A stretch of 64,000 bases of DNA, from the NCBI GenBank assembly GCA_015520045.1, contig WAQW01000003.1, positions 1-64,000 on the forward strand, in the 5' to 3' direction. The notes under the pieces were generated by a model, which worked only from the letters and a program-made list of their open reading frames with translations, did not search any database and had not been told where the DNA came from. Shown here piece by piece: positions 52,291 to 56,358 of this stretch. This stretch comes from Thermoplasmata archaeon. GTDB taxonomy: Archaea > Thermoplasmatota > Thermoplasmata > Thermoplasmatales > Thermoplasmataceae. The stretch's first letter is position 1. Each line of letters starts with the position of its first letter. Position numbers and translations under genes: made by a program.

Positions 52291-52364
52291 TGTTCTATCA
52301 GTATACACATAATATTTCTCATTTTTATACAATAGGATAACCATTTTTACATGCATTTTGCTGA

Positions 52365-53024
52365 ATGATCATAATGTCCTATCTAAGGATCTCAATATCT
52401 CCGGAACTGGATATCAGAGACCTTATAGAACTTATCAGGGAGCTTCACGAATCCTTCGAGATCATTCGTATTTTGGTTTCTGATGGGTTTACACTCGATA
52501 TAAGAGTCTTGAAAAAAGAGAGATATATAGCATTTCAAAGGGTTCTCAACCCTCACCAGCTTGGAAAGATCCTCATGGATACGGGAAGGGAGCCCCACAT
52601 AATAATCCTCAGATCTGAGATAGTAGATTCTTGGGATATCATAGATGTCCAGGCGCTCTATGACATATTGAGAATCAAAAGTTATGGATCATACTGCCAG
52701 GTATATCTCAACATCGTGGGAGAGGGAGGTGTTTTTGAACAGTATCTTGGTGGGACCATAAACAGAATACAAAGGAGAATGGAGGTGAGTAAAGTGGGAA
52801 GAACGGTACCAACAGTCAGGCAGGCCATAGATGATATGGTATCCAAATACAGAAAACTGGGAGAGCTTATGGGCGCTTCTGATAGAGAATTGCTCGAGAG
52901 CCTCCTGATTAGTGGAAAAAGACATTCTACCGATATAGCACTCTCCGGTGTGGATTACGAGACAGGATTCATCCTGTCAATAATGTTCGAGATGATGAAA
53001 ATAATAAAAAACAATAACAGGTGA
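52365..53024 (+). CDS. unknown protein translationally coupled to the PolB2-like gene
   Basis: 219 aa; stop/start overlap GTGA with the downstream gene; no family recognised. Confidence 0.75.
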   Translation: MIIMSYLRISISPELDIRDLIELIRELHESFEIIRILVSDGFTLDIRVLKKERYIAFQRVLNPHQLGKILMDTGREPHIIILRSEIVDSWDIIDVQALYDILRIKSYGSYCQVYLNIVGEGGVFEQYLGGTINRIQRRMEVSKVGRTVPTVRQAIDDMVSKYRKLGELMGASDRELLESLLISGKRHSTDIALSGVDYETGFILSIMFEMMKIIKNNNR

Positions 53025-55069
53025 GTTTTTTGCAAAAGGATGGGAGGATACTGATCAATGCAACGGGTGTGGATACCGTTAAATTGTGGTTCTTTCGATA
53101 TGGAAAGATTGAATACGAACATCACAGAAACCACACCTGGATCTTTGTGACAGGTACAGACTTTGATATAGATTTCCTCGAATCACAGCTAGATCTCGTA
53201 TCCGATATTCATCTTGAGAGATCGATAATGCATGATATTTATGGGCAGAGGAAGGGATTGAAGATCCACCTCAGACCATCGAGAATAAGAGATATGATCC
53301 ACGCTGTGAACACGATCGGTTTTGGGAGGAAATTTCAGATGTACAATTCAGGCATAGATCCGATCCTCAGGTACATCTCCACGAATGATCTTGAATTCTT
53401 CAGCATAGACAACCTCAGGGATCTTGAGCCAGAGATCCAGTCGATTAAGGTGGTACCTCTCATTCACGGAAACAGGGTAGATGGCTTCACACTCAATGGA
53501 ACACGGTATCCCCTAAATTACGATTCTCTCTCCACTCTTAAGAACCAAATGGAGGAGAGCCATATCATTATATGCAGCAATGAACAAGGTGGTTTCCGGA
53601 AGATCCTAGAAGCCGGAAGTACATATGGCATAGCTTTTCCACCATACAGGGAAACGCCTGGCAGAGCTTATGTGAGTTATAACCATGTCATGTATAGTGA
53701 AGCTTCATTAAAAATTTGGGGAAAAATATGCATACCCATTACCTCTTTTATATACTCAGAGGCTGGTATGTATGGCGTTTATCAGGTCTCGCGGATATCA
53801 TCTCTTCCGCCGGAAACGGTTGCGAAGATAACCCCGGGAACAGCTGTATCGGCACTCGAGATATCTCATGCACTGAAGAACAATATTCTGATACCGCACC
53901 ACAAACGAGATTATGAGGGTGAAAAATCTATTGGAGAGCTGTTTGAACTTGACCGGGGAGGGCTCGTCTTGCAACCCGCCCCGGGCATCTACGAGAATGT
54001 GTATGAACTGGATTTCTCCTCGATGTATCCCAGCATTATAGTGAGGTACAATCTATCCCCGGAAACCTTATCAAAGGTACATGGGAAGAAAATACCGGGA
54101 ACTCCTTATTTTGTGCTCACAGTGAGAAGAGGATTCTTACCGGAATCTCTCTCAGAGCTTTTGGGCATGAGACTATTTTACAAACATATAAGAGCGGAAC
54201 ACCCAGCGTATGAGGCAAGAAACATTGCGTTGAAATGGTTACTGCTGACCTCTTTCGGGTATACAGGATACAAAAATGCTAAATTCGGTAAAATAGAAAT
54301 CCACGAAGCCATAACTTCTATCGGCAGATGGGCACTCTCAAAATCCATCAAAATGGCACAGGATCGCGGTTTTAAGGTGATCCATGGAATTGTTGATTCC
54401 CTATGGTTGCAGGGTGATGGTGATGTTGCCTCTCTCGTAAGGGACATAGAGAAGGAGACATCCCTTGAAATAACCGTTGAGGGGCATTACCGGTGGGTAA
54501 TTTTCTTTCCCACGATGGATGGTCTCGGAGCTACCAACAGATATGTGGGGCTGAAAGATGATCGAACGTACAAAGTCAGAGGCATAGAGCTGAGAAGATC
54601 AGATATACCACCCATAGCGAAGAGATTTCAGATAGAAGCGCTCGAACTGTTGAAAACCTGTAACACATCGGAAGAGATACTCAGAAAAAAGATGGGCATT
54701 GAGAGGTTAAAGGATCGATATCTAAAAAAACTGCTGAGACCGGATCCTGAAGACCTGTACGTGAAATTAAAGGTTTCCAAAAGGCTCTCAGATTACAGGG
54801 TGAACAATCTCCAGAGAAGGACGCTCCTGGAATTCAGAAGGAAGGGTGTTGAACTTCAACCCGGGCAGTCCGTTAGCGTTGTTGTAAAACCAGAGGGGAT
54901 GGAAAAAATCACAGATGATCACGATGATGGGTTCAACAGAGAGTATTACAGGCGCATTCTCAGAAGAGCGTTCAAGATGTTTGACTTCATCTTTTCTCTG
55001 GACAGAACTGTCAAAGATCTCAGCTCATACGATCAAGAACTTCCTCAACCTTCTTCTCAAGAACCCTGA
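53021..55069 (+). CDS. B-family DNA polymerase, PolB2-like, degenerate motif C and exonuclease region
   Basis: Motif A YELDFSSMYPSIIVRYN, fingers ALKWLLLTSFGYTGYKNAKFG, motif C HGIVDSLWLQ in place of YGDTDS; no recognisable DxE exonuclease motif. Confidence 0.85.
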   Translation: MSFLQKDGRILINATGVDTVKLWFFRYGKIEYEHHRNHTWIFVTGTDFDIDFLESQLDLVSDIHLERSIMHDIYGQRKGLKIHLRPSRIRDMIHAVNTIGFGRKFQMYNSGIDPILRYISTNDLEFFSIDNLRDLEPEIQSIKVVPLIHGNRVDGFTLNGTRYPLNYDSLSTLKNQMEESHIIICSNEQGGFRKILEAGSTYGIAFPPYRETPGRAYVSYNHVMYSEASLKIWGKICIPITSFIYSEAGMYGVYQVSRISSLPPETVAKITPGTAVSALEISHALKNNILIPHHKRDYEGEKSIGELFELDRGGLVLQPAPGIYENVYELDFSSMYPSIIVRYNLSPETLSKVHGKKIPGTPYFVLTVRRGFLPESLSELLGMRLFYKHIRAEHPAYEARNIALKWLLLTSFGYTGYKNAKFGKIEIHEAITSIGRWALSKSIKMAQDRGFKVIHGIVDSLWLQGDGDVASLVRDIEKETSLEITVEGHYRWVIFFPTMDGLGATNRYVGLKDDRTYKVRGIELRRSDIPPIAKRFQIEALELLKTCNTSEEILRKKMGIERLKDRYLKKLLRPDPEDLYVKLKVSKRLSDYRVNNLQRRTLLEFRRKGVELQPGQSVSVVVKPEGMEKITDDHDDGFNREYYRRILRRAFKMFDFIFSLDRTVKDLSSYDQELPQPSSQEP

Positions 55070-56135
55070 CAGGGGTATCGTTTATCATTATACTCTTGGA
55101 TACCCCTTTCCTACTACCATGACCCTCAATGACGCTCTCTATCATTCCCAAATCTTCCAGTTTGCGTACTATCCGGTAGATCATCGACATGGTGGGACTC
55201 CGTCTAAGCCTGCTCTCCATGAGGATCTCCGTGTTCATAACGATACAGGGAATGTCTGTCTTTGTGAACCTGTACAGGCATCTGCAGGTGGCGAGAAGAA
55301 CTATCAGCTCCTCCTCACTAAGCTGTACCAACTTACTCTCCGTGATGTAGGGGTTTATCAGGGCGTTAGCGGCTCTCACATCATCACTCCCTATTATACC
55401 AGAAGAAACGTAATCAGCGATATACGAGGATTTCTGGAGAAGCTCGATTGCCAATCTCGCACTCCCATACTGAGACGATACCTTGGCGATCATTCTCAGG
55501 ATCTCAGGGCTGTATGTTCCATCATAGAGGGCATCCCTGGCTCTCCTCATTATGATTCCATAAAGTTCACTGAATGAATACCTGGAGAATCTCAAGGTTG
55601 AAATTGGGAGCGGTGAGATCTTTCGAGAACCCCTCAGAAATGTACCGGGATCATCCACGGAAATGAGCACGGTGGACAGTGTCAGATTGTACGCCTCGGA
55701 GGATCGGAGAAGCATCTGCAGCCCGGCCAGATCATTTCTGAGCAGGTTTGATGCTTCATCTATTATCAGAAGGATGTTCATTCCCTTCTGCTTCTGCCAG
55801 TTCGATATCTGCCGAAAAATCTCTGTTGTCGATGGCCTCGCAACACCGGAATTTCTGAGCTTTAACATAACGTCTGCCAGTATGGATCTTGTGGTGGGGT
55901 GTGAAAGAGCGTTAAAATAGAAAGATCTGAATTCCGTGTGATTCAGTAAGGTGAATTTTGACGTTGTCGTTTTACCGACCCCGGGAGAGCCGTAAATAAA
56001 CAGTGTGGTGGATATTCCATCTCTGAGAGGTTTCACAACGAGCTCTTCAAGCCTCTGAATCTCCCTCTCCCGGAAGGGTAGTTCCGAGGGTATATAGACC
56101 GGATCGAGAACCTCGGCGTTTTTAATGATAGTCAT
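55020..56135 (-). CDS. Orc1/Cdc6-family AAA+ replication initiator
   Basis: LPFREREIQRLEELV, Walker A YGSPGVGKTTTSK, Walker B LLIIDEASNL, C-terminal winged helix (TMSMIYRIVRKLEDLGMIE). Confidence 0.9.
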   Translation of the reverse strand: MTIIKNAEVLDPVYIPSELPFREREIQRLEELVVKPLRDGISTTLFIYGSPGVGKTTTSKFTLLNHTEFRSFYFNALSHPTTRSILADVMLKLRNSGVARPSTTEIFRQISNWQKQKGMNILLIIDEASNLLRNDLAGLQMLLRSSEAYNLTLSTVLISVDDPGTFLRGSRKISPLPISTLRFSRYSFSELYGIIMRRARDALYDGTYSPEILRMIAKVSSQYGSARLAIELLQKSSYIADYVSSGIIGSDDVRAANALINPYITESKLVQLSEEELIVLLATCRCLYRFTKTDIPCIVMNTEILMESRLRRSPTMSMIYRIVRKLEDLGMIESVIEGHGSRKGVSKSIMINDTPVRVLEKKVEEVLDRMS

Positions 56136-56358
56136 CCTGCTCGTTCAGTTATTGAAATGAGCATATAAGAATCACACATTGCCATTCAATTGCAAACTTT
56201 ATTCAGAGTCAGCCTATTTTCCCCTTGCTTTCTAAGAGCCATACAGGTCACGTTGCGAATGAACCATCTTTACACGCCGGTGATCACACTCAAAAAATGG
56301 CAGGAAATTCACGCCGGGAAAGATCAGCAGGGTATTATTTATACGTGCAAATAATGAC

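Follow-up and report, generated by a model that had tools for sequence, protein, structure and literature searches.

A probable PolB2 mutasome operon in Thermoplasmatales with an apparently fused iRadA-PPB2 reading frame and a conserved upstream direct-repeat element

We found that the window, the whole stretch of 64,000 nucleotides that was analysed, very probably carries a Thermoplasmatales version of the PolB2 translesion "mutasome" operon. Its genes are arranged in the order iRadA-PPB2-PolB2 next to the usual Orc1/Cdc6 neighbor, and its expression would be induced by DNA damage through the mechanism proposed below. The DNA directly shows the families to which the parts belong, the order of the operon, a Shine-Dalgarno sequence and GTG specific to PPB2, and an upstream element that is conserved. 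The polymerase module itself is already known, and the conserved promoter element, which the preliminary description of the locus had missed, seems to be the new part; a literature search found no description of it.

The genome containing the locus is archaeal, 1.14 Mb in size and 76% complete, and its relatives belong to Thermoplasmata. All three previously noted open reading frames were found at their positions: a 219-amino acid ORF on the forward strand (52365-53024, from the first-called start), PolB2 on the same strand (53021-55069; 682 amino acids, GTG start), and, convergent with PolB2, an Orc1/Cdc6 paralog on the reverse strand (55020-56135) whose Walker A and B motifs are intact. The first two share a 4-nt GTGA overlap. 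The true start of the 219-amino acid ORF is probably ATG 52374 (MSYLRI) and not 52365, because this codon aligns with the starts of the relatives and places the upstream element at -61. The tail-to-tail order of polB2 and orc1/cdc6 was kept in all 38 loci, comprising the window and 37 close relatives with sequence there. The 50-bp antisense overlap between the two genes, described earlier, is present in the window, but its length is not a fixed property, as 29 of the 38 loci overlap by 12 to 84 bp and 9 have a gap of 5 to 49 bp. The upstream genes adjoin the polymerase in every relative with sequence there, so that the conserved neighborhood on which the preliminary description depended was seen throughout.

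The 219-amino acid ORF had been regarded as an unknown protein that might be a dedicated partner of the polymerase. The partnership is upheld by our analysis; however, the ORF is made up of two known components, iRadA and PPB2, both described before (PMC4104785, PMC11791011). No match was obtained when the ORF alone was searched against Pfam, NCBIfam, and PDB, and it was resolved only by family alignments; an alignment mixing iRadA and PPB2 misaligned both and was discarded. Residues 1-143 (52365..52793, forward strand) align with a 138- to 160-amino acid protein encoded directly 5' of PPB2 in the relatives. The profile of this short iRadA matched the longer iRadA of distant operons with a P value of 1.9e-5, with only 63 columns covered, and the longer iRadA matched RAD51/RadA at an E value of 7e-13, with Pfam Rad51 detected in 9 of 13. 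A direct sequence search of the PDB with the short iRadA found nothing. The AlphaFold2 (AF2) model of the ORF showed an alpha/beta domain predicted with confidence, followed by a disordered linker (133-149) and three helices, and Foldseek searches with this model returned UvsX, RadA, and RecA folds with a probability near 1 and a modest E value (2e-3). Because the short form matches the long iRadA, the long form matches RAD51/RadA, and the Foldseek matches have the RecA fold, we assign residues 1-143, from alignment, profile, and model, to a severely degraded iRadA (inactive RadA) domain in which the P-loop region is missing.

The remaining residues (144-219), VGRTVPTVRQ..., correspond to PPB2, which in the relatives is a gene of its own beginning MGRTVPTVRQ. 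The N-terminal arm of the window copy is GRTVPTVRQ, and the pattern GRT-PT-RQ is kept in the relatives. PPB2 was matched by its HMM in 78 of 81 loci, the other three ending at a contig edge, and its helices in the AF2 model of the ORF span residues 151-166, 171-192, and 198-216. The valine of VGRTVPTVRQ is encoded by GTG 52794, which lies 5 nt downstream of the Shine-Dalgarno sequence GGAGGTGA (52781..52788, forward strand; 8/8 match). Within the long ORFs of the window, only 1 of 774 internal in-frame start-like codons had a Shine-Dalgarno match of at least 8. By its sequence, this segment (52794..53024, forward strand) is a three-helix PPB2 of the arCOG07300 type with its own Shine-Dalgarno and GTG, giving 76 amino acids, (M)GRTVPTVRQ..., when read from the internal start. 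We rejected the iRadA tail "LYxWEEQ" as a protein motif, as it is largely forced by the PPB2 MGRT codons in the +1 frame; in overlapping relatives, the TGG GAA GAA inside ATGGGAAGAA corresponds to these codons read in that frame. Locus L042 (position 5754) and the other overlapping loci are therefore dual coding, with the MGRT codons of the PPB2 docking arm also specifying the WEE(Q) end of iRadA.

The window contained the only in-frame fusion that we saw in the family. Every other family locus has iRadA and PPB2 as two genes, which commonly overlap by 19 to 37 nt in another frame or nearly abut. Because the relatives carry two separate genes, the fusion looks unique to the assembly of the window. 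It might thus not be real but the product of a single-base assembly error or a recent indel that joined adjacent genes, a strong contender against which we lean only slightly. The frame starting at 52721 stops at TAA 52790-52792, with a single base between it and GTG 52794, and therefore one indel would separate iRadA and PPB2; the same spacing between the stop and the start occurs in relatives, and the genus has one other genome, which is without the locus. On the other hand, homology in frame 0 persists up to YLGGTIN (compare YLGNRTIN in L052), and true iRadA-PPB2 fusions with an internal Shine-Dalgarno are documented elsewhere (PMC11791011).

By Gibbs sampling of the 130 nt upstream of 37 family operons, we identified a 14-bp direct-repeat element, CATTTnCTCATTTT, which was present in 36 of them about 60 nt upstream (mostly 59 to 63 nt) and had an information content of 19.1 bits as compared to about 7.3 in shuffles. 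The element is a tandem repeat of TCATTTT with an 8-bp period, and its commonest form, CATTTTCTCATTTT, contains ATTTTC. The window copy, TATTTCTCATTTTT (52313..52326, forward strand), has a spacer one base shorter and sits 61 nt before ATG 52374. In other families of Thermoplasmata, CATTTTTTCATTTT or a close copy occurs at a comparable upstream position; ahead of more distant operons, among them those of Methanomassiliicoccales, the element was not found. A version with TATTT as the first half-site was rejected as background, since its matches were mostly intragenic and only one of the six intergenic ones lay at promoter spacing.

Searching 61 family genomes with YATTTNCWCATTTT yielded 164 matches, as compared to 20 for the reversed control. 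A start codon was found 56 to 70 nt downstream of 26 of the 33 strict matches outside long ORFs and at the same distance from 122 of 1087 (11%) random intergenic places. The copy number was only 0 to 14 per genome, which argues against a general promoter element. The regulon sample comprised 80 hand-chosen matches, which are not all independent, several being from one genus. NurA genes (PF09376, E 1e-13) were found behind the element in three loci (L156, L163, and L181), which suggests that the regulon includes end resection by NurA-HerA. The element also precedes, at about 45 to 80 nt, a family of small proteins (66 to 97 amino acids, LLEEIRKLDAERIGIRELRKHNxDLYGYYxxWLxRKEN) that is without a Pfam family and occurs in at least five genera (L159, L167, L174, L177, L182, L185, L189, L192, L196, L220, and L222). 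Further element-linked families of small proteins span 46 to 69 amino acids; those of 56 to 69 amino acids are all without a known domain (L147, L149, L166, L168, L171, L172, L178, and L186; L152, L165, and L173; L199, L201, and L202; L200 and L223). In the genome of the window itself, no exact match to the family element was found, and its own nurA (L254) had no clear copy upstream. The window-type element had one further exact match in this genome (contig C57 of G000), inside a 774-codon open frame, and elsewhere in the genome no regulon was found. Thus, by its sequence, the regulon looks eroded in the genus of the window. In one genome, IS605 TnpB elements carry the element upstream (L148, L151, L154, L155, L157, and L158), which perhaps couples transposition to the same signal.

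We infer from the matched genes and by analogy that the element may mark a damage regulon of Thermoplasmatales. Only tentatively do we extend this to the proposal that CATTTnCTCATTTT is the operator of this undescribed regulon, bound by the linked Orc1/Cdc6 and sharing descent with the UV box of Sulfolobus, and that it belongs to an ancestral archaeal "SOS-like" response run by Orc1/Cdc6. It is also plausible, though less likely than not, that CATTTnCTCATTTT is a general promoter feature or the site of another regulon, one that does not concern DNA damage. Such a reading would accommodate the many downstream genes that are small and have no assigned function, as well as the IS605 copies; however, the known genes behind the element include the polB2 operons, NurA, and orc1/cdc6.

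The candidate regulator at the element is most likely the linked Orc1/Cdc6, which by analogy would act as a non-initiator. The protein is 36 to 45% identical to its counterparts and 21.5% identical to the other Orc of the genome, and has Walker A and B motifs and a winged-helix C terminus. Its sequence marks it as a distinct paralog, separate from the other Orc, and, like an Orc1-2-type protein, it is both distinct from the initiator and linked to damage genes. The association of orc1/cdc6 with polB2 has been noted before (Makarova 2014, PMC4104785; Timinskas 2025, PMC11791011). The exact element lies ahead of orc1/cdc6 in only three loci of one clade (L033, L049, and L051) and was not found in the other orc1/cdc6 promoters examined; the window has only the weak element-like site TATATGCTCATTTC (56154..56167, reverse strand), which has two mismatches and is not above chance alone. 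Because the other orc promoters are without the element, it is from linkage and analogy that we name Orc1/Cdc6 as the regulator. We consider it unlikely that the protein is instead an origin-binding initiator or the marker of a second origin. The retained Walker motifs and winged-helix C terminus would suit such a function, and a role in alternative initiation has been proposed by Makarova 2014 (PMC4104785); however, the protein forms a distinct clade, is far from the other Orc in identity, and is tied to polB2 in every one of the 38 loci, and the damage regulator of Sulfolobus is the non-initiator Orc1-2 (PMC9738581).

The assignment of the polymerase to PolB2, put forward in the preliminary description, was corroborated by phylogeny. 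In a maximum-likelihood tree, it grouped with 25 other PolB2 at 100/100, apart from eight active PolB3 paralogs drawn from genomes of the same family, PolB1 being outside this tree. It also passed the NCBIfam equivalog NF004416 (586 bits, cut-off 516), and its AF2 model (pLDDT 86) has the B-family fold, with archaeal B-family polymerases as the best PDB matches. Motifs A (DFSSMYPS) and C (HGIVDS) were confirmed and are invariant in 15 family members gathered by similarity alone; we relied on this set and excluded loci L033-L112, in which the invariance of HGIVDS is partly imposed by the search pattern. In motif C, the first aspartate is replaced by isoleucine, while the second, like the aspartate of motif A, is kept and invariant. 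An invariant D311, followed by K or R in nearly all members, precedes motif A (D(K/R) loop motif). The in-family PolB3 paralogs retain YGDTDS and the exonuclease motif FD[IV]EN; the latter is absent from PolB2, in agreement with the earlier observation, and its exonuclease domain is degenerate. The PolB2 of S. islandicus (motif C IID) is catalytically active and needed for damage-induced mutagenesis (PMC11791011, PMC8764526, PMC7390963). By analogy with this enzyme, which carries the same type of substitution, the residual or translesion activity suggested earlier is likely. A catalytically dead, purely structural PolB2, as the lost first aspartate and degraded exonuclease might imply, is very improbable, given the activity of the S. 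islandicus enzyme (PMC11791011, PMC8764526) and the two invariant aspartates.

PCNA-box-like tails (e.g., QRDIREYF) end the PolB2 of many Thermoplasmata (L033, L042, L047, L049, L051, and L068-L081), and in the distant operons L101, L103, and L110 such a tail (QTTLDEY) sits on iRadA; no recognizable one was found at the C terminus of the window PolB2. In the incomplete assembly of the window genome, PolB2 was the sole B-family polymerase match, the replicative PolB3 of the relatives being missing from the bin.

In the mechanism that we propose, DNA damage would cause the regulator, most likely the linked non-initiator Orc1/Cdc6, to act at the CATTT-n-CTCATTTT element, which directly precedes the core promoter, and thereby raise the expression of the operon. 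iRadA would hold PolB2 through a contact resembling the one that joins RadA subunits in a filament, and a PPB2 trimer would dock its N-terminal MGRT arm into the PolB2-iRadA cleft. The complex, which would not proofread, would then extend primer ends that are mismatched or carry a lesion. The iRadA and PPB2 of the window would be translated as a single chain, and a second start at GTG 52794 would provide free PPB2 that has the arm for docking.

The window has the same three components as the known PolB2-PPB2-iRadA mutasome (Sulfolobus Dpo2; PMC11791011, PMC4104785), in an order that is one of the variants reported for it. The two also share the replacement of the first aspartate of motif C by isoleucine, the decayed exonuclease, and the orc1/cdc6 neighbor. 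In contrast to the known system, iRadA of the window family is only about 138 to 160 amino acids long, starts after the P-loop region, and is without the C-terminal PCNA-box present in distant operons, and in many family members the start of PPB2 overlaps the iRadA tail in another frame. Internal Shine-Dalgarno fusions of iRadA and PPB2 have been reported for the mutasome (PMC11791011), and to these the window adds an apparent one. Thus, a known polymerase module gains a lineage variant, with a P-loop-less iRadA apparently fused to PPB2 and an internal start.

The UV box of Sulfolobus, A(N)TTTC, occupies positions -44 to -39 of UV-inducible promoters, ahead of the BRE (PMC5817253), and is bound by the non-initiator Orc1-2 (PMC9738581). 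The Thermoplasmatales element resembles the UV box/DDRE in being T-rich and non-palindromic, in lying upstream of the core promoter, in its association with damage-type genes, and in having an Orc1/Cdc6 paralog as the candidate binder. However, the UV box is a single hexamer, while the element is a 14-bp tandem repeat of TCATTTT and a predicted operator, and its number per genome is far below the 214 genes of S. acidocaldarius. That site, position, and candidate regulator all resemble those of Sulfolobus gives a lead but no proof. The element is a concrete candidate for the cis-code of a euryarchaeal damage response, for which we found none described. It names candidate regulon members, including small uncharacterized proteins, and, if the proposal is correct, the regulon holds several of these, one conserved across at least five genera. 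It also offers a route to learning whether the Sulfolobus response driven by Orc1/Cdc6 has an ancient origin. Last, bacterial PolB2 operons place the same polymerase complex beside a damage regulator, but there it is LexA instead of Orc1/Cdc6.
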